Position numbers and translations under genes: made by a program. From contig NZ_CP085336.1 in NCBI RefSeq assembly GCF_020618475.1, positions 1,240,001 through 1,304,000 on the forward strand: DNA of 64,000 nt, written 5' to 3'. Under the pieces are notes generated by a model. The model saw only the letters and a program-made list of their open reading frames with translations. It did not search any database and was not told the origin of the DNA. This document shows, in pieces, positions 14,731 to 29,565 of this stretch (the stretch's first letter is position 1; every line of letters begins with the position of its first letter). The DNA comes from Haladaptatus halobius. Lineage in GTDB: Archaea > Halobacteriota > Halobacteria > Halobacteriales > Haladaptataceae.

Positions 14731-16407
14731 ATGCTACGTGAGAACAGCATCCAAGGAGAACACGTTCCAGCAGGGAAATTCCCACCGACTGAAACACAAG
14801 CAGATCTCTTCTATGCACTCCCCGAACTCCACTATCCGAAATCTCTCAACGCAGCCGTCGAACTCGTCGATCGGCACGTAGAGGCAGGCAAGGGAGACGA
14901 TGTCGCTATCTACTTCGAGGATGAACCGATAACATACCGCGACCTCCAAACGCGAGTCAACCGACTCGGAAACGCGCTTCAAGATCTCGGCGTCGAACCT
15001 GGCGAGCGAGTTTTCGTCCGCTTCGCGAATCGGCCAGAATACGCAGTTTCGTGCCTCGCGGTTCAGAAAATCGGCGCTATTCCCGTCCCGTCGATGAAAC
15101 TCCTGCAGACGAAAGAGTGCACCTACGTCATCGAAGACTCCGGTGCGACGGTCGCCCTCGTGCATGATGGACTATTGGAACCGGTCGAAGCCGCAAACGA
15201 AACGTGTGATTCCCTTCAAACGATCATCGTCGCCGACCGTGAAGGCATCGCACACGACTACCACGATTACGACGACCTTTGTTCAGCAGCCGCGCCGAAA
15301 CTGAACGCAGCGGAAACCCACCGCGACGACCTCTCGATGCTCGCATACACGAGTGGGACGACGGGCCGACCCAAGGGCACGATTCATACGCATCGGCAGA
15401 TGCTTGCGATCGTAGACGGCTATGCACGGTACTGTCTCCAACCGACCATGGACGACGTCTTCTCTGGCAATCCACCCATCGCATTCACGTTCGGGTATGG
15501 CGTTCTCGTTGCATTTCCACTCCGATTCGGGGCGAGCACCGTCATCATCGAGAACGCAGAGCCGTTGGATCTCATCAAGACGATCGACGAATACGGTGTC
15601 ACGGTACTTGGATCGATACCGACTGCCTACAATCAGATGCTCAACGAACACGCCGACCAGATCGAGGCGGCCGACCTCTCATCACTCCGTCTCGGCATTA
15701 GCGCAGGTGAACCCCTCTCGCCGTCCACGTTCGAGCGCGTGAAATCGTCGTTCGGTATCGAACTGCTCGACGGTCTCGGGTCGACCGAGATGCTCCACAT
15801 CTTCGTCAGCCACCGAATCGGTGACGATATCGATCCGTCGGTGACGGGCTACCCCGTTCCGGGCTATGAATGTAAGGTCATCGACCCAGATACGGGTGCG
15901 GAACTCGACTACGGCGAAGCTGGACTGCTCGCCGTCCGCGGTTCAACGGGAGTCACCTACTGGGGGCGGCCAGAGAAACAAGAGCTGGCCGTACACGGTG
16001 GATGGAGCCTTCCTGGAGATGTCTTCGTTCGGACTGAGGACGACCGGTTCGAATACAAGTCACGCCGTGACGACCTCATTATCTCCAGCGGGTACAATAT
16101 ACCGGGCCCGGAGGTCGAGTCGGTGCTTCAAGAACGGGATGAAGTCTACGAAACTGCTGTCGTCGGAAGTCCCGACGAAGAGCGCGGAACGGTTGTTAAA
16201 GCGTTCGTCGTCCTCATCGACGGGGTCGAACCCGACGAGAAAGTCACGTCGATGCTACAGGATCACGTCAAAAGCCAGATTGCTCCCTACAAGTATCCAC
16301 GCCGAATTGAATTCGTCTCAGAGCTTCCGAAAACGGAGACAGGGAAGATACGGCGCAATCTTCTTCGGGAACGTGAGCAAGAGAGTGGCACCGCCAATAC
16401 TCCCTGA
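14731..16407 (+). CDS. benzoate/2-aminobenzoate-CoA ligase-type acyl-CoA synthetase
   Basis: The 558-residue protein is an ANL-superfamily AMP-forming ligase. YTSGTTGRPKGTIHTH (P-loop-like motif) lies near residue 205, ITYRDLQTRVNRLGNAL near 70, DGLGSTEMLHIFVS near 345, GDVFVRTEDDRFEYKSRRDD near 430 and the C-terminal catalytic Lys in KTETGKIRRN near 535. The N terminus (HVPAGKFPP, AVELVDRHVEAGKGD) and STEMLHIF pattern match benzoate and 2-aminobenzoate CoA ligases rather than fatty-acyl ligases. It would convert anthranilate to 2-aminobenzoyl-CoA using ATP. It heads the run of genes containing the aminobenzoyl-CoA monooxygenase/reductase-like fusion, which supports anthranilate as substrate. 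Confidence 0.85.
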   Translation: MLRENSIQGEHVPAGKFPPTETQADLFYALPELHYPKSLNAAVELVDRHVEAGKGDDVAIYFEDEPITYRDLQTRVNRLGNALQDLGVEPGERVFVRFANRPEYAVSCLAVQKIGAIPVPSMKLLQTKECTYVIEDSGATVALVHDGLLEPVEAANETCDSLQTIIVADREGIAHDYHDYDDLCSAAAPKLNAAETHRDDLSMLAYTSGTTGRPKGTIHTHRQMLAIVDGYARYCLQPTMDDVFSGNPPIAFTFGYGVLVAFPLRFGASTVIIENAEPLDLIKTIDEYGVTVLGSIPTAYNQMLNEHADQIEAADLSSLRLGISAGEPLSPSTFERVKSSFGIELLDGLGSTEMLHIFVSHRIGDDIDPSVTGYPVPGYECKVIDPDTGAELDYGEAGLLAVRGSTGVTYWGRPEKQELAVHGGWSLPGDVFVRTEDDRFEYKSRRDDLIISSGYNIPGPEVESVLQERDEVYETAVVGSPDEERGTVVKAFVVLIDGVEPDEKVTSMLQDHVKSQIAPYKYPRRIEFVSELPKTETGKIRRNLLREREQESGTANTP

Positions 16408-16475
16408 TGTATTTGCTAAACGGTACCATTCACCGATAGTTATAGGGTGTTGCTACCAGTCGAATAACACATAAT

Positions 16476-17348
16476 ATGCAAGTAGGAATCGGCCTACCGA
16501 ACACACTGAAAGGAGTCGACAGAGAGCTGATATTGTCGTGGGCAGAGTGGGCAGACGATGGTCCGTTCACAAGCCTTGGGGTATTCGATCGATTGCGCTA
16601 TCACGGCCTTGATCCGATGGCAACGCTTACTGCATGTGCGGCAGTCACCGACGAAATCGAGTTAGCAACGTCGATCATCGCCGGACCGCTTCGGCGGAAT
16701 GCGTCGCTCGCAAAGACGGCCGCAACGCTTGATGTCCTCTCGAACGGCCGACTCACGCTCGGTATGGCCCTCGGTGCGCGGAAAGGAGACTACGACGCTG
16801 TCAGTGTCGAATTCGAAAAACGCGGTCGCCTTTTCGACCAACAATTAGCGGAACTTCGTGATTATTGGGAAGGCGACGATATCGGCCCCGACCCCATACA
16901 GGACGGAGGGCCGACGATTCTCGTGGGCGGCGATAGCGATCACACGTACCGCCGAGTTGGACGGTTTGCGGACGGTTACATCCACGGTGGGGGCCCGCCA
17001 CGCGCCTTCGCTCGGCAGGCAGAACGTGCACAAGCGGCGTGGGCTGAATGCGAACGCCCGGGCGGCCCCGAAATCTGGGGCCACGGGTACTACGCGCTCG
17101 GTTGTGACGAAGCAGCCGAGAAGGGACGCGATTACCTGCTGAACTACTACGAGTTCACCGGGCCGTTCGCCGAACGGATCGCCGAGAGTCTTCTCACGAC
17201 GCCTCAGGAGGTCACGCAGTTCGTCCGAAGCTACGAAGACAAAGGATGTGACGAACTTATACTGTTCCCGACCGTCGCCGACCCTGAACAGTTCGATCTG
17301 CTGGCCGATACCCTCGGCACAAAGTGGAACGGGAGTGAGAATGCGTGA
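16476..17348 (+). CDS. luciferase-like (LLM class) F420/FMN-dependent oxidoreductase
   Basis: The 290-residue TIM-barrel flavoprotein begins MQVGIGLPNTLKGVDRELIL and has the LLM landmarks AAVTDEIELATSIIAGPLRRN, LAKTAATLDVLSNGRLTLGMALG and PTILVGGDSDHTYRRVGRFADGYIHGGG. In haloarchaea such proteins often use F420. Its last codons overlap the next gene (stop TGA inside GTGA), so it is translationally coupled to the ring-attacking fusion protein. It may supply reduced flavin or F420-linked reducing power for dearomatisation, or reduce a downstream ring intermediate. This coupling is not part of the bacterial 2-aminobenzoyl-CoA pathway as I know it. TATA-like GTTATAGG lies about 35 bp upstream. 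Confidence 0.85.
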   Translation: MQVGIGLPNTLKGVDRELILSWAEWADDGPFTSLGVFDRLRYHGLDPMATLTACAAVTDEIELATSIIAGPLRRNASLAKTAATLDVLSNGRLTLGMALGARKGDYDAVSVEFEKRGRLFDQQLAELRDYWEGDDIGPDPIQDGGPTILVGGDSDHTYRRVGRFADGYIHGGGPPRAFARQAERAQAAWAECERPGGPEIWGHGYYALGCDEAAEKGRDYLLNYYEFTGPFAERIAESLLTTPQEVTQFVRSYEDKGCDELILFPTVADPEQFDLLADTLGTKWNGSENA

Positions 17349-19498
17349 ACGTGGACATACTCGGGGGCGGCCCAGGGGGATTGTACGTCTCCCTGTTGCT
17401 CAAGAAGTCTTTCCCAGAGTGGGAGGTGACCGTCTACGAACGCGACCCCGCGGACAACACGTACGGGTGGGGGGTCGTCTTCTCGGACGCCACCCTCTCG
17501 TCACTCCGTGAGGCAGACCGACTCAGTCACGAACGGATCACTGATGCGTTCGTTCGCTGGGATCCGATTGATATCTACTACGACGGAGAGTACTTCCGAT
17601 GCAGCGGACACTCCTTCGCCGGCATTATGCGCTCAGATCTCCTGTCGGTTCTCCAGACCCGTGCAGTCGAACTTGGTGTCGAATTACGCCATGGTGAGCC
17701 GATCAACGATCCGGAGCAGCTTCGAGCGGAGTCCGACATCCTCATCGGCGCAGATGGTCTGAACAGCACCGTCAGAGAGACATACGACCAGGCGTTCCGG
17801 CCGAACAACAATGCGGGCAACGCCAAGTTCGCGTGGTTCGGAACCGTGAAGCCGTTCGACGTGTTCACATTCATTTTCCGAGAGAACGAACACGGGCTCT
17901 GGCGTATTCACGCCTACCCAGGGCGGAAGAGTACGTTCATCGTCGAATGCACCGAGGAAACGTGGGCGGCCGCCGGAATGGACGAAGCATCCGAGGAAGA
18001 GGCGCTCGGATATTTCGAGGAGCTCTTTGCAGATCACTTGGGAGACTACAAGCTCGAGTCCAAGCTCTACGCCTGGCGGAACTTCCCGACCGTGCGAAAC
18101 GCAACGTGGTCGCACGAGAACGTCGTTCTGATCGGCGACGCGGCCCATACCGCACACTTCTCCATCGGGTCGGGAACGAAGATGGCGATGGAAGATTCGA
18201 TCGCCCTCCAAGAGGCCTTCGAGGAACACGGTCGGGATATTCGGGCGGCATTCAACTGGTACGAGAAAGAGCGCCGTCCGCGTGTCCAAGGGCTCCAAGA
18301 GGCCGCCGAGCGAAGTGAGAACTACTTCGAGAACGTCGAGCGCTATCAGAATCTCCGCCCACGTCGGTTCGCGTTTAACCTCCTGACGCGGAGTGGACGA
18401 ATCACGTACGATAACCTCCGCGTCCGCGATCCGTCGTTCGTCGATCGCTTCGACCAATGGTTTACTGCAGCTGAGGGTGAGGAAGCGACGGCAGTAGCGA
18501 CGCCGCCGCTGTTCAAACACCTCTCGTTGCGAGACGTGCGGATACCAAACCGCACGGTCATGACGCTCCCACCCACAGAGACGGCAACCGACGGCCAGCC
18601 CGCGGACTCGTATCTTGACCAGTTAGTGATACGGGGCGAACAGGGACCCGGTATGCTGCTGACCGACCCACTCGCGGTCACACCCAACGGACGGATAACA
18701 ACTGGCACGCCCGGACTCTACGCCGACGACCACACCGACGCCCTCGGCGATGCGATTGCTCGAGTCCGCGACGCTTTGGCGGCGGAACCCATCGTCGGTG
18801 CCCACCTATTCCACGCCGGTCGACGTGGCGCGACCAAATCCCGCGACCGCGGCCTCGACCGTCCGCTTCCGGAACACGAACGGTGGGAACTGTTGGCACC
18901 CTCGGCGAAACCATTCGGGCCTGCAAGTCCGACACCGACCGCCATGGACACCGACGACCTTGATCGGGTTCGTGAAGCGTTCGTCACTGCAGCGGAGCGT
19001 GCTGAGAGGGCTGGATTCGATCATCTGCAACTCAACGCGGGGCATGGCTATCTCCTGTCGAGTTTCCTCTCACCGCTCTCGAACGACCGTGACGATGAGT
19101 ATGGCGGGTCGCTAGAGGAGCGGATGCGCTACCCGCTCCAGGTGTTTGACGCCGTTCGTGACGCGTGGCCGGAGGAGAAATCCCTCGGAGTGACCCTCCA
19201 AGCGACCGATTGGAATCTAAACGGCCTCAAAACGCACGAGGCATACGCGGTGGCTCGATCGCTCAAGGAACGCGACTGTGACCTCCTTGCGATCGTGGCT
19301 GGGCAAGCCTCCGTTCGGGAACGCCCGCAGTTCGACACCGATACACTGGGCCGGTTTAGCGAACAGTTTCGTAACGAGGTCGAGATGCCAACACTCTCGA
19401 CAAATTACCTCACGACGTACGACGAGGTGAACACGATGGTCGGTGGAGGCCGGGCGGATTTGGTGTTGTTCCATCCGAATACTCCCGCATCCAGCTAG
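17345..19498 (+). CDS. 2-aminobenzoyl-CoA monooxygenase/reductase-like FAD-OYE fusion
   Basis: The 717-residue protein joins two flavin enzymes. Residues 1-380 form a hydroxylase of the salicylyl-CoA/2-aminobenzoyl-CoA monooxygenase type: GGGPGGLYVSLLLKK at the start (FAD), DILIGADGLNSTVR near 143 (DG motif) and LIGDAAHTAHFSIGSG near 262 (GD motif). From about residue 390 (FKHLSLRDVRIPNRTVM) an old-yellow-enzyme domain follows, with HLFHAGRRG, LNAGHGYLLSSFLSPLSN and YGGSLEERMRYPLQ. The only well-known proteins with this order are the fused 2-aminobenzoyl-CoA monooxygenase/reductase of Azoarcus evansii and salicylyl-CoA 5-hydroxylase-type relatives. It should hydroxylate C5 and reduce the ring of 2-aminobenzoyl-CoA. 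It starts at GTG, overlapping the LLM stop. Confidence 0.85.
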   Translation: MNVDILGGGPGGLYVSLLLKKSFPEWEVTVYERDPADNTYGWGVVFSDATLSSLREADRLSHERITDAFVRWDPIDIYYDGEYFRCSGHSFAGIMRSDLLSVLQTRAVELGVELRHGEPINDPEQLRAESDILIGADGLNSTVRETYDQAFRPNNNAGNAKFAWFGTVKPFDVFTFIFRENEHGLWRIHAYPGRKSTFIVECTEETWAAAGMDEASEEEALGYFEELFADHLGDYKLESKLYAWRNFPTVRNATWSHENVVLIGDAAHTAHFSIGSGTKMAMEDSIALQEAFEEHGRDIRAAFNWYEKERRPRVQGLQEAAERSENYFENVERYQNLRPRRFAFNLLTRSGRITYDNLRVRDPSFVDRFDQWFTAAEGEEATAVATPPLFKHLSLRDVRIPNRTVMTLPPTETATDGQPADSYLDQLVIRGEQGPGMLLTDPLAVTPNGRITTGTPGLYADDHTDALGDAIARVRDALAAEPIVGAHLFHAGRRGATKSRDRGLDRPLPEHERWELLAPSAKPFGPASPTPTAMDTDDLDRVREAFVTAAERAERAGFDHLQLNAGHGYLLSSFLSPLSNDRDDEYGGSLEERMRYPLQVFDAVRDAWPEEKSLGVTLQATDWNLNGLKTHEAYAVARSLKERDCDLLAIVAGQASVRERPQFDTDTLGRFSEQFRNEVEMPTLSTNYLTTYDEVNTMVGGGRADLVLFHPNTPASS

Positions 19499-19637
19499 TG
19501 AACTAGCCCTTCAACTCGCTTCGCTTGTTCGTGGAGGACGGAACCGTCGTACTTAGTAGAGGAATGCACAATCGGAGGTGCCAGACAAGAAGTCGTTTTC
19601 CCGGATGAGTCGAGAACGTTCTCCGTGTAGTAGTATT

Positions 19638-19678
19638 GCTGTCCTCGCGTGGCCGAAAGATTTCATCGTGAGGACAGC
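19638..19678. promoter_or_regulatory. 12-bp inverted repeat upstream of the RidA operon TATA
   Basis: GCTGTCCTCGCG (19638-19649) pairs with CGTGAGGACAGC (19667-19678) with one G:T mismatch and a 17-base spacer. It ends just before the TATA element CTTAAGAT (about 19680-19687) that lies about 30 bp upstream of the RidA ATG. It could be an operator next to the BRE, or a terminator for the preceding gene. Confidence 0.45.
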
Positions 19679-19710
19679 TCTTAAGATAGCTGCGCCAGTT
19701 GTTCTCACAC

Positions 19711-20133
19711 ATGAAACGGCAAATCGTCTCGCCGCCGGAGTTGGCCGAGCCCCGTGGATTCAATCACGGTGTGCTGGTCGAGGGCGGGAAGACACTCTAT
19801 CTCGCGGGCCAGGACGCGACGGGAGCAGACGGAAACATCGTCGCCCCAGATGACCTTGTCCGCCAGTTCGAACAGGTGCTCGAAAACCTCGCGACGGTCG
19901 TCGAGCAAGCTGGCGGTGCGAGTGAAAATATCGTGAAACTCAATATCTTCGTCGCAGACCGTGAGCAGTATCGTTCAAACCTCGAGCCGCTGGGCGAGGT
20001 GTTCGGCCGATATTTCGAGGAGTATCCGGCGCTCGCACTCTTCGAGGTGAGCGGCTTCTTCAAAGAAGAGACATTAGTCGAGTTGGAAGGGTTCGCCGTC
20101 ATCGACGAGAAGGGAACGAACGATGCTCGGTGA
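19711..20133 (+). CDS. RidA-family enamine/imine deaminase
   Basis: The 140-residue protein is a YjgF/YER057c/UK114 (RidA) family member: RQIVSPPELAEPRGFNHGVL, LYLAGQDATG, VKLNIFVADREQYRSNLEPL and YPALALFEVSGFFKEETLVELEGFAVI. RidA proteins hydrolyse enamines and imines to ketones and ammonia. In this operon the expected ring product of 2-aminobenzoyl-CoA is a cyclic enamine, so release of ammonia from it is a natural role. RidA-like genes also accompany bacterial aminobenzoyl-CoA clusters. The last 11 bases overlap the acyl-CoA dehydrogenase start, showing operon coupling. Confidence 0.85.
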   Translation: MKRQIVSPPELAEPRGFNHGVLVEGGKTLYLAGQDATGADGNIVAPDDLVRQFEQVLENLATVVEQAGGASENIVKLNIFVADREQYRSNLEPLGEVFGRYFEEYPALALFEVSGFFKEETLVELEGFAVIDEKGTNDAR

Positions 20134-21271
20134 ATTTGCCGTCACCGCTGACCACGAGACGCACCGTGAGACGGTACGCGAGTTCTGCGAGGAGGAGATA
20201 CTACCGCATATCGAAGAGTACGAAGAGCGCGGGGAGTTCCCTGCGGAACTCATCCGACGGGTCGGCGAAGCGGGGTTGACGGGCGTTCCCTTCTCGACAG
20301 AGGTAGACGGGGGCGGGCTCGACTACCGCTCATTCGCAGTCACGGTTGAGGAACTCTCGCGAGCATGGAAATGCGTCGCGGGTGCCGTCAACATCGCCTG
20401 CGGACTGGTGGGCTACCCGATCGCCGAGTTTGGCACCGACAGCCACCGTGAGGAGTGGCTCGCACCGATCTGTCGGGGAGAATCCATTCCTGCGCTGTCG
20501 ATGACCGAACCCGACGCAGGGAGTGATGCCGCCGCGATGGAAACCACTGCTCAACGTGAGGGTGACGAATGGGTTATTGACGGCCACAAGGTGTGGACGA
20601 CCAACGGTGAAGCCGCAGACTTCCTCCTCATCGTCGCGCGTACGGGTGACGAGGGCCACGGGGGATTGAGCCTGATCGGCATCCCCAATCCCGGCGACCG
20701 TGACGGAGTGGAGTTCGTCCGGAACATTCCCTGCATGGAAGGTGACACCGCTATCGAAAGCGAGATTCGATTCGACGATGTCCGTGTTCCTGTCGAGAAT
20801 CTCGTCGGCGAGGAAGGACGCGGGTTCCGCTACGTCATGGAAGCGCTCGATATCGGCCGAATCGGCACCGCCGCCCAGGGTGTCGGTCTCGCGCAGGGAT
20901 CGCTCGATGCGGCGAAGGCGTTCGCCGACGAGCGAGAGCAATTCGGCCAGCCTATCCGCGAATTCCAAGGAATCGGATTCAAACTCGCAGATATGGCCAC
21001 GCGAACACAAGCGGCACGGCTGCTGACCATGTACGCCGCCGGAAACCGTGACCGGGGGGAACGCGTGACGCAGGACGCAGCGATGGCCAAGACCTTCGCT
21101 ACGGACGCGGCAATGGACATCGCAACGGAGGCAGTGCAAGTACTGGGATCACGGGGATACTCGCAGGACTACCCCGTCGAGCGGTACATGCGCGAGGCGA
21201 AGGGCACGCAGATCTACGACGGGACGAACGAGGTGAACCGACTCGTTGTAAGCAAGCGATTATACGAATGA
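20123..21271 (+). CDS. acyl-CoA dehydrogenase
   Basis: The 382-residue FAD protein has the standard acyl-CoA dehydrogenase plan: SMTEPDAGSDAAAMET near 130, KVWTTNGEAADFLLIVART near 155, QVLGSRGYSQDYPVERYMRE near 340 and the terminal catalytic region QIYDGTNEVNRLVVSKRL. The residue that serves as catalytic base in most members is Glu in (I/T)YEGT; here it is Asp. Acyl-CoA dehydrogenases of alicyclic CoA esters are reported to use Asp, so a cyclic substrate is a reasonable guess. It overlaps RidA upstream and MaoC downstream (ATGA) and is co-translated with them. Confidence 0.9.
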   Translation: MLGEFAVTADHETHRETVREFCEEEILPHIEEYEERGEFPAELIRRVGEAGLTGVPFSTEVDGGGLDYRSFAVTVEELSRAWKCVAGAVNIACGLVGYPIAEFGTDSHREEWLAPICRGESIPALSMTEPDAGSDAAAMETTAQREGDEWVIDGHKVWTTNGEAADFLLIVARTGDEGHGGLSLIGIPNPGDRDGVEFVRNIPCMEGDTAIESEIRFDDVRVPVENLVGEEGRGFRYVMEALDIGRIGTAAQGVGLAQGSLDAAKAFADEREQFGQPIREFQGIGFKLADMATRTQAARLLTMYAAGNRDRGERVTQDAAMAKTFATDAAMDIATEAVQVLGSRGYSQDYPVERYMREAKGTQIYDGTNEVNRLVVSKRLYE

Positions 21272-21723
21272 ACCAGAATTCGACGCAACGCTATTTCGAA
21301 GATCTCGCCGTGGGTGAGACGTTCAATCTCGGGGCAGAAACGGTCACCGAAGCGGAGATCATCTCCTTCGCCGAGCAATACGACCCGCAACCGATTCACA
21401 CCGACCCCGAGGCAGCTGCCGAGTCGATGTTCGGCACGCTCGTCGCCAGTGGCTGGCACACGGCGGCGATCAGTATGCGGCGATTCGTGGATGGCATCGT
21501 CGAAAAGGCAGGAATCGCCATCATCGCAGGCGTCGAGGTCGAGAACCTCCAGTGGAGGCGTCCCATCAAACCCGGCGATGTTCTCAATGCCGATGCGGAA
21601 ATCGTCGGTCTTGAAGAGTGGAACGAAGAGCGGGGTACCGTTCAATTCGAACTCGAGATGCGAACGGACGACGGTGACCCCGTACTGCAGCTGACCAAGC
21701 GGGTGTTGGTCGCGCGGAAGTGA
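21268..21723 (+). CDS. MaoC-like hot-dog dehydratase
   Basis: The 151-residue protein shows the MaoC signature RYFEDLAVGETFNLG, SFAEQYDPQPIHTDPEAA (catalytic Asp/His pair of the hydratase 2 motif), SGWHTAAISMRRFVDG and VENLQWRRPIKPGDVL. It is a single hot-dog domain of normal length. These enzymes hydrate enoyl-CoA esters. The start ATG overlaps the acyl-CoA dehydrogenase stop by 4 bases. In context it would add water to the double bond introduced by the dehydrogenase. Confidence 0.88.
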   Translation: MNQNSTQRYFEDLAVGETFNLGAETVTEAEIISFAEQYDPQPIHTDPEAAAESMFGTLVASGWHTAAISMRRFVDGIVEKAGIAIIAGVEVENLQWRRPIKPGDVLNADAEIVGLEEWNEERGTVQFELEMRTDDGDPVLQLTKRVLVARK

Positions 21724-21783
21724 GAGATGACGGCCTGCGAACCGACATCACCTTGATTATCCACGCCATCTCATTTCGAAGCG

Positions 21784-22551
21784 ATGACCGATCTGACACC
21801 GGATTTCTCGGGGCAGATGGCCGTCGTGACCGGCGGCACTCGTGGAATTGGACGCGCGATAACTGAAGCGTTCGCAGAAACTGGTGCCGATGTCGTGCCG
21901 ACCTCTCGCACCGAAGACGACGTCGTTGAGGCCGTCGAGGCTGTCCAAGAGCGGGGGTGTGAGTCACTCGTCGTCCCCACCGACGTAAGCGACCAGGAGG
22001 CAGTCGAGAAGCTCTTCGCACAGGTCAAAAACGAGTTCGGGCGCATCGACATCGTCGTCAACAATGCGGGAATCAATCCCCGAGGCGCACTCGGTCGCCC
22101 CGAGACAATCGACGTCGACGAGTTCGACCGGACGGTCGACGTGAATCTCCGCGGTGCATTTGCCTGCGCCAGGGAAGCAGGTGCAGCGTTACAAAAGTCG
22201 GGTGGTTCGCTCATCAACATCGCCAGTGTCGGCGGCGTTGTCGGTATCCCGCGCCAGCATCCTTACGTCGCATCGAAACACGGGCTTGTCGGCCTGACCA
22301 AGAGTCTCGCGCTCGATTGGGCGCCAGACGTTCGCGTGAACGCTGTCGCTCCCGGCTATGTGACCACCGACCTGACGGACGGTATCCGTGAGAACGAGGA
22401 TCTCTACCAACGTCTGCTCGACCAAACGCCGATGAAACGCTTCGCCGACCCCGACGAAGTCGCCGCACCTGTGGTGTTTCTCGCTAGTGAGATGGCATCC
22501 TACGTAACCGGTGAGTGTCTGGTCGTGGACGGTGGGTGGATCGCCGAGTGA
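21784..22551 (+). CDS. short-chain dehydrogenase (SDR)
   Basis: The 255-residue classical SDR has the cofactor motif VVTGGTRGIGRAI, VNNAGIN, the catalytic Ser in INIASVGGVVG and YVASK with Tyr and Lys, plus the terminal YVTGECLVVDGGW. It follows MaoC by 60 bp in the same direction and would oxidise the hydroxyacyl-CoA or ring alcohol made by the hydratase. A strong hairpin just after its stop suggests that the operon ends here. Confidence 0.88.
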   Translation: MTDLTPDFSGQMAVVTGGTRGIGRAITEAFAETGADVVPTSRTEDDVVEAVEAVQERGCESLVVPTDVSDQEAVEKLFAQVKNEFGRIDIVVNNAGINPRGALGRPETIDVDEFDRTVDVNLRGAFACAREAGAALQKSGGSLINIASVGGVVGIPRQHPYVASKHGLVGLTKSLALDWAPDVRVNAVAPGYVTTDLTDGIRENEDLYQRLLDQTPMKRFADPDEVAAPVVFLASEMASYVTGECLVVDGGWIAE

Positions 22552-22564
22552 CGTGCACGTCAAG

Positions 22565-22600
22565 CACAGGCCTCGCCTTCAACGAAAGAGGAGGCCTGTG
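22565..22600 (+). terminator. hairpin terminator after the RidA-SDR operon
   Basis: CACAGGCCTC (22565-22574) and GAGGCCTGTG (22591-22600) are perfect 10-base complements with a 16-base loop. A T6 tract follows about 20 bases later at 22621-22626. The position right after the SDR stop and before the promoter of the next gene fits a terminator. Confidence 0.55.
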
Positions 22601-22650
22601 AGGGGGATTCTGAGGGTAGCTTTTTTCGAGTAGGACGTGAGAATTATATC

Positions 22651-23424
22651 ATGGATGACGTCAACGCTGAGTTCAGCGTCGTAGACGGTATCGCTCGCAT
22701 CGAGATTCAGCGCGAAGCAAAGCTGAACGCAGTCGATATGGAGACGAAGCTGGTGATCACCGACCAACTTCGTGAGTATCGTGACCGGGATGACGTGCGA
22801 GTGGTGCTCTTTGAGAGTGCAGGCGATGCGTTCTGCGCTGGCGGCGATTTACAGGAGGTAAAAGATCGCGAGTACGCCCTCGAACCGTTCACCGAGACGT
22901 GGGAGGAATTGTTCACCGAAATGCGGACGATCCCCCAGCCGACGGTAGCGAAGATCGATGGGCATACGTACGGCGGTGGGTTCGATCTCCTCTTACACAC
23001 CGATATTCCGATTGCCGCGAACGACGCGCAAATCGGCCAACCGGAGTCGGCGCTCGGTATCGTCAATCACTTCTCGCCACCAGAACTGTTGGAGCGGGTC
23101 GGCCTTCCGACGGCGATGGATATACTCATGACTGGCGAACCGATCACGGGCGCTCGCGCCGATGAAATCGGTCTCGTAGCGAGAAGCGTTCCTACCGAGG
23201 AGTTGGATGCGACGGTTCAGGCAGTTTTCGACGCGCTCAGAGCCAAAAGTCCGCGGGTGCTCAAAAAACTTAAGCAAGGTATCTATGCGAGTACGGATAT
23301 GTCACCAACGGCCGCGAAAGCACACTTGGAGGCAGTCTCGTTGGAGGCGGCTCGTACCGATCCCGATTACCGGGAGGGCGTCGACGCTCAACTTGAACGA
23401 CGTGACCCCGATTGGCCGGCGTAG
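22651..23424 (+). CDS. crotonase-family enoyl-CoA hydratase/ring hydrolase
   Basis: The 257-residue protein has the crotonase fold: GDAFCAGGDLQEV (oxyanion hole), GHTYGGGFDLLLHTD near 115 and AQIGQPESALGIVNHFSPPELLERVG. Of the two hydratase glutamates, the one in QPE is present, but the first (GGGxEL in hydratases) is Asp. Ring-cleaving crotonases such as 2-ketocyclohexanecarboxyl-CoA hydrolase (BadI) depart from the hydratase pair, so ring opening is an alternative role. The ATG has AATTATATC directly before it and a T-run further up; it probably has its own promoter after the SDR terminator. Confidence 0.85.
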   Translation: MDDVNAEFSVVDGIARIEIQREAKLNAVDMETKLVITDQLREYRDRDDVRVVLFESAGDAFCAGGDLQEVKDREYALEPFTETWEELFTEMRTIPQPTVAKIDGHTYGGGFDLLLHTDIPIAANDAQIGQPESALGIVNHFSPPELLERVGLPTAMDILMTGEPITGARADEIGLVARSVPTEELDATVQAVFDALRAKSPRVLKKLKQGIYASTDMSPTAAKAHLEAVSLEAARTDPDYREGVDAQLERRDPDWPA

Positions 23425-23480
23425 CCAAGTGACTCACGTTCTTTTGTGACTTATTGTAGGAACGACTACAAGACAGTATG

Positions 23481-23489
23481 TTTATTATC
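23481..23489 (+). promoter_or_regulatory. TATA box of trpB-like gene
   Basis: TTTATTATC lies 30 bp before ATG 23511, a standard leaderless haloarchaeal arrangement. Confidence 0.5.
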
Positions 23490-23510
23490 TATCGTGTGGT
23501 GTGAGAGACC

Positions 23511-24683
23511 ATGGCTAAGAAAGGCCAGCAGCATGAATTTGGATCGTACGGAGGACGATATGTTCCTGATGAGCTAGCAGACGTCCTGCAACAGTTAGCT
23601 GATGCCTACGATAGCGTGAAAGATGATACAGACTTTCAGGCCGAACTACAGCGGCTGCAGCGAGATTTCGCCGGGCGACCAACACCGTTGTATCGCGCCG
23701 ATCGACTGTCGGCCGAGTACGGGGCAACAATCTATCTCAAACGCGAAGATCTGCTCCATGGCGGTGCGCACAAACTCAACAACTGCCTCGGGCAAGGACT
23801 CATGGCCAAACACGCCGGGAAGGAGCGTCTTATCGCCGAAACTGGAGCTGGTCAGCACGGAACGGCTACGTCTATCGTCGGTGCGCTCCTGGGACTCGAC
23901 ACGGTAATCTATCAGGGCAAGAAAGACCTTGAGCGTCAGAAGATGAACGCCTTCCGCATGGAATTGATGGGTGCAGACGTCAATGAAGTGACGCAGGGGG
24001 GACAGGGGCTTGCCGACGCTGTCGATGTCGCACTCGAAGATTTGATCGAGAACATCGATAACACGCACTATCTCGTCGGCTCTGTCGTCGGTCCAGATCC
24101 GTTCCCACGGATGGTTCGCGATTTCCAATCTGTCATCGGCAACGAGGCCCGTGAACAGATCCTCGAGAAAGAAGGGCGACTCCCTGACGCTGCAGTTGCG
24201 TGTGTCGGCGGGGGCTCTAACGCGATGGGACTATTCCATGCCTTCCGCGATGACGATGTCGAGTTTTTCGGAGCAGAGGGTGGTGGCGAAGGATCCGATT
24301 CGAAACGCCACGCTGCGCCGCTTGCTTCCGGAAAGGAAGACGTCATCCACGGGATGCGAACCCGCGTTCTCGACGATGACGTAGAAGTTCACTCCATCGC
24401 TGCGGGCCTCGACTATCCCGGCGTCGGACCCGAACACGCGATGTTCCGTGAAGTCGGCCGTTGTGAGTACCAAGCCGTCGTCGACGATGAGGCGCTTGAC
24501 GCCTTTCAAGACCTCTGCCGCCTCGAGGGAATCGTGCCGGCGTTGGAGTCGAGCCACGGCGTTGCGCTCGCAAAGAAACTCGCCGCAGAACGCGATTCGG
24601 ACGACGTCATCATTGTGAACCTGAGTGGCCGAGGTGACAAGGACGTCGACAAGATAGCGAACGAGTATCTCTCGAAGAGCTGA
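23511..24683 (+). CDS. trpB: stand-alone tryptophan synthase beta chain-like protein
   Basis: The 390-residue protein is TrpB by GSYGGRYVPDEL, REDLLHGGAHKLNNCLGQ (PLP Lys near residue 88), AETGAGQHGTA (catalytic Glu), PFPRMVRDFQSVIG, CVGGGSNAMG, GLDYPGVGPEHAM and NLSGRGDKDVD. TrpB condenses indole with serine to tryptophan. There is no trpA, trpC or other biosynthetic gene nearby; instead it sits amid kynureninase, dioxygenase and aminobenzoyl-CoA genes. It also departs from the usual GQHGVA (Thr for Val) and HKxNNALGQ (Cys for Ala). A role in feeding indole or an indole analogue into the catabolic route is an attractive inference; a simple biosynthetic paralogue remains possible. Confidence 0.9.
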   Translation: MAKKGQQHEFGSYGGRYVPDELADVLQQLADAYDSVKDDTDFQAELQRLQRDFAGRPTPLYRADRLSAEYGATIYLKREDLLHGGAHKLNNCLGQGLMAKHAGKERLIAETGAGQHGTATSIVGALLGLDTVIYQGKKDLERQKMNAFRMELMGADVNEVTQGGQGLADAVDVALEDLIENIDNTHYLVGSVVGPDPFPRMVRDFQSVIGNEAREQILEKEGRLPDAAVACVGGGSNAMGLFHAFRDDDVEFFGAEGGGEGSDSKRHAAPLASGKEDVIHGMRTRVLDDDVEVHSIAAGLDYPGVGPEHAMFREVGRCEYQAVVDDEALDAFQDLCRLEGIVPALESSHGVALAKKLAAERDSDDVIIVNLSGRGDKDVDKIANEYLSKS

Positions 24684-24689
24684 ATCGAC

Positions 24690-24720
24690 TTTCAAGGTTC
24701 CAGAGTCCCGTTTTATTAGA
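24690..24720 (+). terminator. possible U-tract terminator after trpB
   Basis: CCCGTTTTATTAG follows the trpB-like stop at about 24706-24718; archaeal transcription can end at such T tracts without a hairpin. Confidence 0.3.
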
Positions 24721-24809
24721 CGCGGGCACTATTTCCCTTCCCACAGAATGAGCGAACGCGAGTAGGAGGGATAGTGCATCGGGAGGCCCATTTGCGGTAG
24801 AGAGGTGAC

Positions 24810-25793
24810 CTAGATCATCTCTTGGAGGTGAGTGAAAAACCGCTCTTCACGGTCGGCCAGCGCCATCGCTTGGTCGCCCGCTTGCTCGAGAAGTCGTTCC
24901 TGTTGTCGGCCTTCAGCCTCACTCGCTTCTTTGAGCGTTCCACTCAAGCCAGTCCAGTCGTCCGCGATGTCGTAGAGTCGTTCCGGGATTTCATCCCGTA
25001 ATCCCAAGTCGGGAGCTACTTGCTCGAGAAATTCGGCGTACAACCGACGGAACGCACCACCGCCCGTTCCGCGTCGTTCGATGTTCTGATAGCCAAATCG
25101 AGCACACCAACTCGTGTCCTCCAACGCCGTCCATGTCGGAAGATCCTCCCCAAATCGTCGAATACCTTTGATCCCCTCCGATTTCCAGTGGCCGTCCTCC
25201 GGTGTGAGCATGATTTTCACCGCCCGCTGAACCGCGTGCCTGCTCGCCGGGGTGCAATCGTTTTCGATGGTGGAATCGGTGACGACGAGCCACCGATTGT
25301 CGAGAGGGCCGAACCCGTAGTCGGAATTCAACGCCTCCTGTAAGTGCGCGATTGGCAGTCGTTGTACGGAATCGAACTCGCTGTCGGAGAAGAGAACTTC
25401 CTCATCGTCAATTCCGATGCAGAGGACCACGTGCGGGCCAAAATGCGTACTCGTTTCGAAATAATCGAGATAGAAGAGATTGACGAACAGCATCACTGGG
25501 GCATCATCGGCGATGTGGGCCTGCATATCGTTCCACGCAGTTTCCCACGTCTGCCCGCTGGCTTCTCGATAGTCGATTCCGAGCGTCTCGAAAAATCCCG
25601 TCTCCAGTTGTCCGTTCCGCCCCATGATGATGCGACTTGCTGGGCCGTGTTCGTAATAGCCGAATCCGAGGCCGGAACCGAGTCCGAAACAGAGTGACTC
25701 GTTCAATCCCCAGCCGTAGTAGTCTGCTAGATTTCGAAGCGACGCCGAACCACAGTGGGCGCCGGGCGTGTGGGTGTATTTGGAGAGATGCAT
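24810..25793 (-). CDS. BtrH-type acyltransferase-like protein (BtrH_N + DUF4872)
   Basis: The 327-residue protein begins with the BtrH N-terminal pattern: TPGAHCGSASLRNLADYYG with a Cys near residue 14 as likely nucleophile, then ESLCFGLGSGLGFGYYEHG and TSTHFGPHVVLCIG with a His near 120. The second half resembles the DUF4872 region that follows in this family. BtrH moves an amino-acyl group from a carrier protein onto an aminoglycoside in butirosin synthesis; other members sit in uncharacterised clusters. Here it lies leftward next to kynureninase, with no carrier protein in sight. It may form or break an amide of an amino-aromatic compound, but that is a guess. The ATG at 25793 is preferred to an upstream TTG. 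Confidence 0.7.
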   Translation of the reverse strand: MHLSKYTHTPGAHCGSASLRNLADYYGWGLNESLCFGLGSGLGFGYYEHGPASRIIMGRNGQLETGFFETLGIDYREASGQTWETAWNDMQAHIADDAPVMLFVNLFYLDYFETSTHFGPHVVLCIGIDDEEVLFSDSEFDSVQRLPIAHLQEALNSDYGFGPLDNRWLVVTDSTIENDCTPASRHAVQRAVKIMLTPEDGHWKSEGIKGIRRFGEDLPTWTALEDTSWCARFGYQNIERRGTGGGAFRRLYAEFLEQVAPDLGLRDEIPERLYDIADDWTGLSGTLKEASEAEGRQQERLLEQAGDQAMALADREERFFTHLQEMI

Positions 25794-25916
25794 ATACAAT
25801 CGACCGATTGCTCCCCGTAAAGCAGTGTTGTCCGTAAGGGCTGTTGGCTATGTGTGTTCTTCTGTACACAGGGCAACGAAATCTCTACTAGCCTGTCCGT
25901 CCCAGTCACAGGCACG

Positions 25917-27203
25917 TTAGGTCACACCGCCACCGCGTTCTTCGAACTGCTCGTACACACGTTCGTCGAGGATTTCGCGCAGGTGTTCGACAGCATCCCA
26001 GACATCTTCGAAGCTAACGTAGAGTGGTGACGGGCACATACGGATGACGTTCGGCGATCGGAAATCGACGATGACGCCGTGTGCTTTGAGCGCCTCGTTG
26101 ATCCGGTATCCCTCTGGGTGCTCGATGGCCACATGGCCGCCGCGCTGAGCCGGGTCGCGCGGCGTTCCCAACGTGCACTCGGGGAGGCGTTCGTCGACGA
26201 GAGAGATGAGGTATTCGGTGAGTGCCACTGACTGCTCACGTAGTGTTTTGATACCAACCTCGTCGATGATATCCAATACGCCCGCAAGCGGGGCGGCACT
26301 CAGGATGGGAACCGTACCGATCTGCCAAGCCCCTGCTGAATGCGCGGGCGTGTAAGTCAGTTGCATCTCGAACTGCGTGTCCTTCTCATGGCCCCACCAA
26401 CCTGCTAGCGCAGGCAATTCACCGTGATAGTCGCGGTGGACGTACAATCCTGCGATGGCACCAGGGCCGGCGTTGAGATACTTGTAGTGACACCACACAG
26501 CGAAGTCGACATCGTTCTCGGCCAGTGAGTGAGGCATCGCTCCCACGGAGTGCGCGAGGTCGAAGCCTGCAAACGCATCGTGTTCGTGTGCGAGGTCCGT
26601 GATGGATTTAATATCCAGGAGTTGGCCAGAGCGGTAGAAGACGGAAGGCATGAAGACGATACCCACGTCATCGTGTTCGTCGAGTGCAGCCGCGATATCG
26701 TCTTCGCGGAGCGTCCGTCCGTCGTGAGACTCAACGATGACGAGATGCTCGTCGGGGTCAAGTCCACGAATACGGAGCTGTGCGCGAATCGCGTAGTGGT
26801 CGGTCGGAAAGTCAAGGTCGTTCACGATGACCTTCTGCCCGCGGCCCAACTCTGCACGTTGATCAAGAAAGGTACCGACGAGCGTGTGAATATTGACGGT
26901 CGTGGAATTCGCCACGACGACCTCATCCTCGCGGGCCCCGACGATTGGTGCAAGACGCTTGCCGAGGTGTTCGCCATAGTGGAACCACGGCGGTTCGCCA
27001 TCAGTCCAGCCTTGAATCCCACGTTCGCGCCATTCGTCGACGACGTGTTGGAGGTTGCGCTCGGCGTCCGTCGAGAGTGGGCCAAGGGAGTTACCGTCGA
27101 GATAGAGATCGTCGGGGAGATAGAACCGATCGCGAAGATTCACACTGGCTGCGTCGTCACGTTGCTGAGCATATTCGCACCCGAGTTCGATTTCATCGTC
27201 CAT
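25917..27203 (-). CDS. kynU: kynureninase
   Basis: The 428-residue PLP enzyme has the kynureninase hallmarks: YLDGNSLGPLS near 35, GWTDGEPPWFHYGE near 60, VVVANSTTVNIHTL near 95, DLDFPTDHYAIR near 130, AGFDLAHSVGAMPH near 210, VWCHYKYLNAGPGAIAG near 235 (PLP Lys) and VDFRSPNVIRMCPSPLY near 390. Length is usual for the family. It splits kynurenine to anthranilate and alanine. The start at 27203 gives MDDEIELGCEYA; an AAAATA element lies about 30 bp upstream. It is divergent from the candidate formamidase at 27289, so both genes share an 85-bp promoter region. Confidence 0.95.
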   Translation of the reverse strand: MDDEIELGCEYAQQRDDAASVNLRDRFYLPDDLYLDGNSLGPLSTDAERNLQHVVDEWRERGIQGWTDGEPPWFHYGEHLGKRLAPIVGAREDEVVVANSTTVNIHTLVGTFLDQRAELGRGQKVIVNDLDFPTDHYAIRAQLRIRGLDPDEHLVIVESHDGRTLREDDIAAALDEHDDVGIVFMPSVFYRSGQLLDIKSITDLAHEHDAFAGFDLAHSVGAMPHSLAENDVDFAVWCHYKYLNAGPGAIAGLYVHRDYHGELPALAGWWGHEKDTQFEMQLTYTPAHSAGAWQIGTVPILSAAPLAGVLDIIDEVGIKTLREQSVALTEYLISLVDERLPECTLGTPRDPAQRGGHVAIEHPEGYRINEALKAHGVIVDFRSPNVIRMCPSPLYVSFEDVWDAVEHLREILDERVYEQFEERGGGVT

Positions 27204-27288
27204 AGGTTGTATGACACCTCCAGCAGGGTGTATTTTTCGGAGAGTGACCACCGGAACAGTCAAGACGGAGTGACGAAACACACCACTC

Positions 27289-28215
27289 ATGTCAACACGT
27301 GCTGACGAACTCGACGTCGAACTAGCCGCCGTCATCGAGGAAATCGAAGCGATGGGGATTCCAGAATGGCACGAACTGTCGGTCGAGAGTGCTCGGCGCA
27401 TCGAGGACGAACTGTTCACGACCGGTGGGGGCCCCGAGATTGAGGTCGTCCGCGATCTCGCTTTCGACGGCCCTGGAGGCGAAGTTCCAGTTCGTGTGTA
27501 TTGCCCTGCTGCCGACCAACCCCTTCCAATTCTTGTCTACTACCACGGTGGCGGGTGGGTACTTGGAACACTCGACTCCGTCGAGAACATCTGTCGCGAA
27601 CTTGCAATGCGTGCAGAGTGCATTGTTGTCTCGGTGGATTACCGTCTCGCACCTGAGCACTCGTTTCCCGCTGCAGTCGACGATGCGTACGCTGCCCTCG
27701 AGTGGGTTATCCGAAACGCCGACGTTCTCGGGGGGGATGGACGCGTCGCTGTTGGTGGCACCAGTGCTGGAGGCAATCTCGCCGCCGTAACTGCTCTCCG
27801 TGCCAGGGAACAAAATGGCCCAGACATCACGCGGCAACTGCTCCTGTATCCCATCACCGACTTTGCACTCGATACCGATTCCTATCAGGCGAACGCAGGC
27901 GGACCACTGTTGACCCACGCCGATATGGAGTGGTTTTGGAATCAGTACCTTCGGAGTCCTGTCGACGGCTATAACCCCTTTGCGTCACCGTTGCAGATGA
28001 TCGATTTTTCAGGGGTTGCACCAGCGACGGTCGTCACCGCGGGGTTCGATCCGCTTTGTGACGAGGGGGCCGCCTACGCTGACCAACTGGCAAACGACGG
28101 TGTCGATGTCGAGCACCTTCACTATCCAGCGATGGCTCACGGGTTTCTCAGTTTGAGTGACGATGTGACCGTCGCTGACGAAGCGTTGGATGCGGTGGCG
28201 GGAAATATCTGGTAA
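27289..28215 (+). CDS. HSL-type alpha/beta hydrolase, candidate N-formylkynurenine formamidase
   Basis: The 308-residue hydrolase carries the hormone-sensitive-lipase motif YYHGGGWVLGTLD near 85, VSVDYRLAPEHSFPAAVDDAYA near 115, the nucleophile elbow VGGTSAGGNLAA near 158, Asp in TAGFDPLCDEG near 250 and His in YPAMAHGFL near 285. The catalytic triad is complete. Eukaryotic kynurenine formamidases are alpha/beta hydrolases with an HGGxW motif, and this gene lies between kynureninase and indoleamine dioxygenase where that activity is the one missing. A general carboxylesterase is the alternative. A creatininase-family protein at 8153 is a second candidate for the same step. Confidence 0.8.
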   Translation: MSTRADELDVELAAVIEEIEAMGIPEWHELSVESARRIEDELFTTGGGPEIEVVRDLAFDGPGGEVPVRVYCPAADQPLPILVYYHGGGWVLGTLDSVENICRELAMRAECIVVSVDYRLAPEHSFPAAVDDAYAALEWVIRNADVLGGDGRVAVGGTSAGGNLAAVTALRAREQNGPDITRQLLLYPITDFALDTDSYQANAGGPLLTHADMEWFWNQYLRSPVDGYNPFASPLQMIDFSGVAPATVVTAGFDPLCDEGAAYADQLANDGVDVEHLHYPAMAHGFLSLSDDVTVADEALDAVAGNIW

Positions 28216-28371
28216 GAGACAACCTCTATCTGTTTTCTGCTATATAATCCGAAACTGTCGCACGCGCGTCCGAGAGATACTCAATTCTCACCGAGAGTGA
28301 GTCTCTTTGGCTGCTATTGTACGATTTAGGAATCCAATCGCCATATTTGACAGTAGGAACGAACTTCATGC

Positions 28372-28380
28372 TTTAAGATA
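28372..28380 (+). promoter_or_regulatory. TATA box of the dioxygenase gene
   Basis: TTTAAGATA ends about 25 bp before ATG 28405. It favours this ATG over a GTG at 28393. Confidence 0.5.
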
Positions 28381-28404
28381 GTTAGCGTACTAGTGAAACC
28401 CACG

Positions 28405-29565
28405 ATGACCGAACGCGTTGAATCACTCGATTACAATCGGTTCGATATCAGCCCTGAACACGGATTTCTTCCTGATACCGAACCACTCATGTCGTTCGGG
28501 ACGGACGCACATCCGCATCTCCAATCACTCGACAAATTAGGAGATGGCCTCCCTAGCCTCATTGAGAACGACCAGCTCAGATCGGCGGTGGAAAACCTTG
28601 AGGCGCCATCTCCAGATGTATTTGACGAGCTGACCGAACGCGAACTGATGCGCGTATACAGTGTCACCGGATTCCTCGCGAATGCGTACGTGCATAAACC
28701 CAACGAACCGTCCGCCACTACCATTCCAACCGGCGTGGCCGTCCCGCTTTATGAATCGACGAAGCGCCTTGGCCGCACGCCAGTCCTTTCATACGACGCA
28801 TACGTCCTTCATAACTGGACTCTAACCGACACCGACCGTGCAATGACGCCACCGAACGTAGACACCATCACAAATTTCTTCGAACCGCGTGACGAGCAAT
28901 GGTTCATCGCTATCCACGTCGCCATCGAGAGCGCAGCAGGGCCGGCGATCGCCGCGATCAGCGATGCACAACAAGGAATCATCGAAGATGACCTAACTCG
29001 GGTTACGCACGCCCTTCAAACGATAGAAGACGCGCTACACGATATTACTGCGGTTCTCGATAGAATGCCGGAGCACAACGATCCAGAGCAATATGGACAG
29101 GGATTTCGACCGTATTTGAAATCGCTTACGAGCGTCAAGTACGAAGGTGTCACTGAGCTCAACGGGCCCCAATCATACCGAGGCGCGTCCGGAGCGCAGT
29201 CAAGTCTTTTCCAAGCGCTTGACGCTGCCTTGGGAATTGATCACGGTGATAACCCGCTCGTGAACCATCTCCATGTCCTACGGGGAGATATGCCTCCCGC
29301 TCACCGAGCATTCATCGAGGCGGTTGAAGAGGGCCCAAACCTCCACGATTACGCTGCGAACAGTGATGACAGCCTTCGCAATGCATACAATGACTGTATC
29401 GACCGGATGGTTACCTTCCGCGATCACCACATCGACATCGTCGAGACCTACTTGACAAAGCCGCTTGACGAACAGAAAGGAACTGGTGGAACGCCGTACG
29501 GTCGCTATCTTGGGTCATTCACAGACGATACGCAAAACTGCAGGCTATCGTCTTCGGCGGAGTGA
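28405..29565 (+). CDS. indoleamine 2,3-dioxygenase
   Basis: The 386-residue protein is an IDO-family haem dioxygenase. The C-terminal half matches the family step by step: SYRGASGAQSSLFQALDAAL near 255, DMPPAHRAFIEAVEEGPNL near 295, FRDHHIDIVETYL near 335 (the His corresponds to the proximal haem ligand) and GTGGTPYGRYLGSF near 360. The N-terminal domain has LANAYVHKPN and ATTIPTGVAVPLYE. It opens the indole ring of tryptophan to N-formylkynurenine. IDO is mostly known from animals, fungi and some bacteria; an archaeal copy is unusual as far as I know. It forms a pathway set with the adjacent hydrolase and kynureninase. Confidence 0.93.
   Translation: MTERVESLDYNRFDISPEHGFLPDTEPLMSFGTDAHPHLQSLDKLGDGLPSLIENDQLRSAVENLEAPSPDVFDELTERELMRVYSVTGFLANAYVHKPNEPSATTIPTGVAVPLYESTKRLGRTPVLSYDAYVLHNWTLTDTDRAMTPPNVDTITNFFEPRDEQWFIAIHVAIESAAGPAIAAISDAQQGIIEDDLTRVTHALQTIEDALHDITAVLDRMPEHNDPEQYGQGFRPYLKSLTSVKYEGVTELNGPQSYRGASGAQSSLFQALDAALGIDHGDNPLVNHLHVLRGDMPPAHRAFIEAVEEGPNLHDYAANSDDSLRNAYNDCIDRMVTFRDHHIDIVETYLTKPLDEQKGTGGTPYGRYLGSFTDDTQNCRLSSSAE

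Follow-up and report, generated by a model that had tools for sequence, protein, structure and literature searches.

A haloarchaeal island for probable tryptophan degradation through anthraniloyl-CoA, with a disabled OYE domain and a candidate luciferase-like ring reductase

The 64,000-nucleotide stretch of Haladaptatus halobius DNA analysed here (the window; 1.24-1.30 Mb of a 1.41-Mb contig, in a genome of 7.28 Mb) carries a gene island that would degrade tryptophan by way of 2-aminobenzoyl-CoA (anthraniloyl-CoA), and in which a reduction step lost from a fused flavoprotein has probably been taken over by a separate luciferase-like (LLM-class) oxidoreductase, most likely linked to F420H2. We assign this reading a probability of about 0.58. 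It is built on observed genes and families, motif losses, selection on a retained domain, co-occurrence across 394 genomes of the class and a plasmid collection, and the replacement of a gene pair. Predicted, by contrast, are what each enzyme does (from protein families), which cofactor the LLM protein uses and in what sequence the late steps run; the reactions beyond the ligase are the least certain.

In bacteria, the dearomatising reduction of the corresponding pathway is performed by the FMN-containing old yellow enzyme (OYE) half of the same polypeptide that carries the monooxygenase. A preliminary description of the window had named an indoleamine 2,3-dioxygenase (IDO), a kynureninase with its pyridoxal phosphate (PLP) lysine, a hydrolase, a CoA ligase, a fused monooxygenase/OYE protein and a RidA, acyl-CoA dehydrogenase (ACAD), MaoC, SDR and crotonase set, and had joined them into an archaeal hybrid CoA pathway. 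Profile searches placed every one of these genes in an open reading frame (ORF) of the expected family, and the proposed route from tryptophan to anthraniloyl-CoA is well supported; the assumption of an ordinary Azoarcus-type fusion is not, the FMN site being lost in all 25 haloarchaeal members compared. The island also encodes an LLM-class flavoprotein, a stand-alone tryptophan synthase beta chain (TrpB) and a BtrH/DarH-like protein, none of which had been named. The genes on which the argument turns are the following.

14731..16407, + strand: aryl-CoA ligase, probably anthranilate-CoA ligase, 558 aa (TIGR02262; PDB 4wv3)
16476..17348, + strand: LLM-class (luciferase-like) oxidoreductase, candidate F420H2-dependent ring reductase, 290 aa (PF00296; TIGR03619 below cut-off)
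17345..19498, + strand: fusion of an FAD monooxygenase and a C-terminally truncated OYE-like domain, 717 aa (PF01494, PF00724)
25917..27203, - strand: kynureninase, 428 aa from MDDEIELG (PF22580, PF00266; PDB 1qz9; PLP Lys241)
27289..28215, + strand: HSL-type alpha/beta hydrolase, probable N-formylkynurenine formamidase (PF07859)
28405..29565, + strand: IDO, 386 aa (PF01231)

The fusion protein and its OYE-derived half

The FAD half of the fusion passes the PF01494 cut-off, and its glycine-rich and GD motifs are invariant in four orthologues. The whole polypeptide scores 789.8 bits against NF006101, below the cut-off of 1078, and covers positions 1-714 of 768. Bacterial fusions measure 760-800 aa versus 696-722 aa for haloarchaeal ones, which all stop at the final OYE strand, the OYE half of the window fusion being about 50 residues short; the absent C-terminal piece is one that, on the basis of OYE structures and YqjM numbering, we take to hold the FMN-phosphate-binding Arg. 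The Arg equivalent to R215 of YqjM, a conserved Gly and the FMN-phosphate motif xR(P/T/A)HLxDP are all lost in 25 of 25 haloarchaeal fusions and intact in 11 of 11 bacterial ones, while the OYE residue Q102 is retained in 6 of the 25. With the OYE half truncated and stripped of FMN-site residues in this way, there is no support for the protein being the normal monooxygenase/OYE reductase for which it had been taken.

We rejected a frameshift or pseudogene as the source of the short protein: 25 homologues share the endpoint, no downstream frame encodes the missing end, and the ratio of nonsynonymous to synonymous change (dN/dS) is low. No separate small ORF for the missing OYE end was seen in the 200-bp gap after the fusion gene. 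Between the window and its relatives, dN/dS is 0.09-0.12 for the OYE part and 0.05-0.10 for the FAD part; the OYE half is accordingly under purifying selection and not freely decaying. Haloarchaeal fusions also cluster together to the exclusion of their bacterial counterparts (100/100 support), so that the simplest history is a single acquisition and, after it, a single disabling step. Since the FMN site is gone in every haloarchaeal fusion, ring reduction, if it occurs, needs another enzyme, and the LLM protein whose gene is coupled to that of the fusion is the best candidate.

A classical Azoarcus-type enzyme, in which the truncated OYE half binds FMN in a non-standard manner and carries out the reduction itself while the LLM protein serves otherwise, would account for that selection as well as for the survival of one or both substrate-binding His positions in many haloarchaeal members (the first is Asn in the window fusion). 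We regard such an enzyme as improbable in view of the uniform absence of the FMN-phosphate motif, of the Arg and of the Gly; the further decay of the domain in the more distant fusions described below, one subgroup of which (G352, G119, G221 and G144; G and L numbers are our labels for genomes and loci) has lost the rest of the OYE site as well; and the joint replacement of the LLM protein and the fusion in one plasmid.

The LLM protein as partner of the fusion

The last 4 bp of the LLM gene are shared with the start of the fusion gene. In 15 of 15 window-type clusters the LLM gene lies directly upstream of the fusion gene, the distance between the two being -4 to +28 bp. Trees of the LLM proteins and of the fusions recover the same main groups. 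The protein itself scores 104.6 bits against PF00296 (cut-off 27.9), and its top NCBIfam match is TIGR03619, a subfamily of F420-dependent LLM proteins, at 126.3 bits and under the cut-off of 166.9; the same subfamily is the most significant across 11 LLM orthologues. In Natronosalvus halobius, cofH and npdG, which serve F420 synthesis and reduction, flank the LLM-fusion pair.

Partnership is further suggested by the plasmid of H. pallidirubidus, where the island keeps the gene order of the window and the fusion gene is gone from between the ligase and RidA genes. A broken LLM remnant of 382 bp persists at the native site, with 79% identity to the window, and a second LLM-fusion pair lies 8 kb upstream (the two loci: L098 11143-14169 and 23223-23880). 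Both members of this second pair are closest to Natrialbaceae proteins, the LLM protein being 83% identical to that of Natronosalvus and 64% to that of the window, the fusion 76% to that of G253 and 61% to that of the window, and the two trees place the pair alike. It thus appears that the LLM-fusion pair was lost and replaced as a unit.

Distribution points in the same direction. A full-length fusion occurs in 21 of the 394 genomes, of which 12 are window-type (at least 56% identity to the window fusion, the window genome included) and nine carry a fusion at 45-49% identity. The latter are gentisate-type: all nine have matches to gentisate 1,2-dioxygenase (E 1e-59 to 1e-65, under the curated cut-off of the model) and none has an LLM orthologue. 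Conversely, the LLM orthologue is present in all 11 window-type genomes of at least 59% identity, none of which has the gentisate dioxygenase (Fisher 6e-6 for the contrast). A hydroxylase that supplies gentisate can do without ring reduction, whereas the anthraniloyl-CoA route requires it.

Taken together, these data favor a scheme of aerobic tryptophan breakdown in which IDO would convert tryptophan to N-formylkynurenine, the HSL hydrolase would release kynurenine, kynureninase would split this into anthranilate and alanine, and the ligase would form 2-aminobenzoyl-CoA. Hydroxylation of the ring at C5 would then fall to the FAD half of the fusion, and the LLM protein, translationally coupled to it, would perform the dearomatising reduction, most likely with F420H2, the OYE-derived half being kept as a cofactor-free scaffold that perhaps docks the LLM protein or shapes the active site. 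The bacterial enzyme has been reported to yield 5-hydroxyanthraniloyl-CoA under limiting NADH, and anthraniloyl-CoA and a compound fitting hydroxyanthraniloyl-CoA have been seen in Arthrobacter Rue61a (PMC3534580). From a fusion without a reductase one would expect 5-hydroxyanthraniloyl-CoA. With enones and enamines as substrates, F420H2 reductases have been described as alternatives to OYE, and the picrate ring receives hydride from F420H2 enzymes of the LLM family (PMC8498797). The picrate reductase Fht, a luciferase-like hydride transferase, shares the LLM fold family with the window protein and offers a precedent for F420H2 hydride transfer to an aromatic ring (PMC8498797), but acts on a different substrate class; the window protein, a candidate F420 enzyme, scores below the family cut-offs. 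To the specific proposal of a two-protein rebuild, in which a monooxygenase with a dead OYE scaffold works alongside an LLM reductase dearomatising the ring with F420H2, we would give even odds.

Several observations weigh against this scheme. The LLM protein falls below the cut-off of every F420 subfamily, its neighbours in the PDB mix FMN monooxygenases with F420 enzymes, and F420 genes flank the pair in just one of the clusters examined. One genome (G393, 82% complete), whose fusion sits on a long branch of the tree, has fusion and ligase with neither the LLM protein nor the gentisate dioxygenase, and the two classes are each nearly one clade, so that few independent events may underlie the contrast between LLM protein and gentisate dioxygenase. 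AlphaFold models (mean pLDDT 43 for the fusion and 35 for the LLM protein) are too poor for judging the OYE barrel. The mixed PDB neighbourhood also bears on another role for the LLM protein, that of a monooxygenase using FMNH2 to insert a second oxygen, as it might in a Baeyer-Villiger-like ring opening, with no reductive dearomatisation at all. FMN is compatible with the sequence, and the neighbours do include FMN-dependent monooxygenases; the F420 subfamilies nevertheless score best, cofH and npdG stand beside the pair in one cluster, and a conserved flavin reductase gene accompanying the pair was not seen in the clusters. We therefore hold this role to be unlikely, although less so than reduction by the OYE half itself, and favor the LLM protein as an F420H2-linked reductase.

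The upper route and its recurrence in haloarchaea

An island for converting tryptophan through kynurenine and anthranilate to anthraniloyl-CoA is well supported as a recurrent feature of haloarchaea by gene content and family assignments. IDO scores 266.8 bits against PF01231 (cut-off 26) and can be aligned to the solved IDO1/IDO2, with its heme-ligand His at about residue 341 of 386. Kynureninase has KYNU_C/Aminotran_5 domains, matches PDB 1qz9 at E 3e-77 and places its PLP Lys in CHYKYLNAGPG. The hydrolase (Abhydrolase_3, 248.9 bits) has generic esterases as PDB neighbours, and its gene is paired with that of kynureninase in most haloarchaeal clusters compared. In H. caseinilyticus (L147 4237-6170) a methyltransferase gene occupies the formamidase position, and IDO is annotated merely as a hypothetical protein. 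The ligase passes TIGR02262, the benzoate-CoA ligase family (380.2 bits, cut-off 375.25), and its top PDB match is the anthranilate-CoA ligase 4wv3 (E 4.5e-84), tied with the benzoate-CoA ligase 2v7b. Orthologues of the ligase (61-66%) adjoin genes for TrpB, kynurenine formamidase, kynureninase and IDO in Natronococcus, G043 and G102, and IDO in G385.

The preliminary description had suggested searching other haloarchaeal genomes for the gene set, and the set does recur. IDO occurs in only 19 of the 394 genomes and yet in 11 of the 12 window-type genomes, where 0.58 would be expected (hypergeometric 1e-15, a value that is only indicative since the genomes are related). The fusion and IDO genes are about 1 kb apart in G043, G047 and G102. 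Of the haloarchaeal plasmids in the plasmid collection, the seven with a window-type fusion all carry IDO as well, and no other does; among named relatives with annotation the island sits on plasmids, and an essentially complete gene set lies together in Natronococcus, Haladaptatus salinisoli and H. pallidirubidus.

Automatic annotation (PGAP) and NF006101 name the fusion family salicylyl-CoA 5-hydroxylase, and the ligase match does not separate benzoate from anthranilate, so it might be supposed that the fusion hydroxylates salicyloyl-CoA or benzoyl-CoA and that the substrates of the island are aromatic acids different from anthranilate. This seems very improbable to us: gentisate dioxygenase (TIGR02272) was found neither in the window genome nor in the 11 other window-type genomes, as against nine of nine gentisate-type genomes, and the linkage with IDO and kynureninase is steady. 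Gene content, the co-occurrence of fusion and IDO, and the lack of a gentisate dioxygenase in the genome favor anthranilate over salicylate as the acid served.

Relation to known systems and the remaining island genes

The 2-aminobenzoyl-CoA pathway of Azoarcus evansii (Schuhle 2001 and Langkau 1990, as related in PMC3534580) and similar alphaproteobacterial clusters (Paracoccus L092, Phyllobacterium L118) share with the island the ligase, fusion, RidA, ACAD, enoyl-CoA hydratase (ECH) and SDR genes. In contrast to these clusters, the haloarchaeal OYE half is truncated and without its FMN site, an LLM gene is added and coupled to the fusion gene, the ACAD is only about 34% identical, the crotonase belongs to a different subfamily, and a MaoC hydratase, TrpB, IDO and kynureninase are present in addition. 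A plasmid of Thalassospira marina (L120 7001-16145; fusion-SDR-MarR-ECH-ACAD-ligase-kynU-kynA) resembles the island in bringing fusion, SDR, ECH, ACAD, ligase, kynureninase and a tryptophan dioxygenase together, but is bacterial, has tryptophan 2,3-dioxygenase (TDO) and not IDO, keeps its OYE half intact and lacks an LLM gene. The gentisate-type haloarchaeal fusions (Natrinema salinisoli, Halostagnicola larsenii) belong to the same group as the window fusion (100/100) and have the same truncation; they differ in having neither an LLM gene nor IDO, in the gentisate dioxygenase of their genomes and in a more decayed OYE half.

The joined pathway had been put forward as one not seen described for archaea, and no archaeal description of such an island was found in the open-licence literature searched, which is weak evidence of absence. 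Bacterial counterparts, however, are already known for the upper route, for the fusion and for the CoA ligase, and the Thalassospira plasmid joins them with kynU and kynA. As far as the searched papers show, three things are new: the archaeal island, its disabled OYE half and the LLM protein as constant companion of the fusion. Even in bacteria, the breakdown of tryptophan by anthraniloyl-CoA monooxygenase/reductase (ACMR) is listed as a poorly known route (PMC9007349), and the island would be its archaeal form. It would also be a natural case of a fused reductase that was disabled, its domain retained and its job apparently shifted to another protein. Measurements show that Halobacterium and Halococcus make F420, but what it does for the physiology of these organisms is described as undetermined (PMC8498797). 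If our reading is true, F420 would have a defined catabolic role in haloarchaea, and the LLM-fusion pair makes this question testable by one deletion and one assay.

The remaining genes of the island, and one thiolase gene outside it, are as follows.

19711..20133, + strand: RidA-family protein, 140 aa (PF01042)
20123..21271, + strand: ACAD (ACAD family matches; orthologues 64-67% in Natrialbaceae clusters)
21268..21723, + strand: MaoC-type hydratase (family matches; cluster comparison)
21784..22551, + strand: SDR dehydrogenase (NF005559, 238.8 bits, above cut-off)
22651..23424, + strand: crotonase-family protein (family matches; orthologues 57-66% in Natrialbaceae clusters)
23511..24683, + strand: stand-alone TrpB (TIGR00263, 539.9 bits, above cut-off)
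24810..25799, - strand: BtrH/DarH-like protein (BtrH_N and DUF4872)
47846..49030, - strand: thiolase, possible unlinked last step (TIGR01930, 370.7 bits, cut-off 240.55)

RidA, ACAD, MaoC, SDR and crotonase may together accomplish enamine hydrolysis, ring opening and beta-oxidation. The island had been called apparently complete to ring opening; this is supported for the upper route to anthraniloyl-CoA, while for ring opening there is only a candidate enzyme, the crotonase. A functional thiolase had been reported missing nearby, and yet a full-length one lies in the same window, outside the island and above the curated cut-off. In the island RidA and in those of the bacterial ACMR clusters, Met/Leu replaces what we take to be the catalytic Arg of RidA proper, so that a distinct Rid subfamily accompanies the pathway. 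The ACAD motif reads IYDGT in Haladaptatus and Halomicrococcus versus IYEGT in the Natrialbaceae orthologues, the Glu presumably being the usual catalytic position. A second ACAD (L097 9758-10921), absent from the window cluster, is conserved at 78-82% near IDO or the fusion in G047, G043, G102, G365 and G071.

The window genome encodes three TrpBs, one of which, the canonical chromosomal copy, overlaps a TrpA-like ORF. Cluster TrpBs form a group apart from the canonical ones (100/100 support), with 45-52% identity to the chromosomal TrpB, and genes of this type recur beside kynureninase and formamidase genes in several haloarchaeal families. The idea that cluster-linked TrpBs form one exclusive catabolic clade was rejected, as three unlinked copies fall inside the group. 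Our guess is that TrpB would join indole and serine and so bring indole, as tryptophan, into the same route. The second TrpB and the BtrH/DarH-like gene, which adjoins the TrpB and/or kynureninase genes, might instead speak for an island that makes a tryptophan-derived signal or secondary metabolite and does not degrade tryptophan for growth. We give such a product little credence: the RidA-ACAD-MaoC-SDR-crotonase genes are conserved alongside, the BtrH-like gene was seen only in Haladaptatus and Halomicrococcus clusters, and genes for a branched-chain amino acid-type ABC transporter inside the Natronococcus cluster suggest uptake.

Further genes accompany the fusion in single clusters or small sets of them. 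Genes for 2-oxoacid dehydrogenase E1 lie near the fusion in three clusters (L098 14959-17119; L064 14988-15988; L097 25609-26157) and perhaps serve a 2-oxo acid product. Judged by eye from translations, two fusions have neighbours related to anthranilate: trpD/trpF-like genes adjoin the Halovenus fusion (L003 12315-14036), and trpD/trpE-like genes lie near the ligase and fusion of G393 (L066 978-4047).

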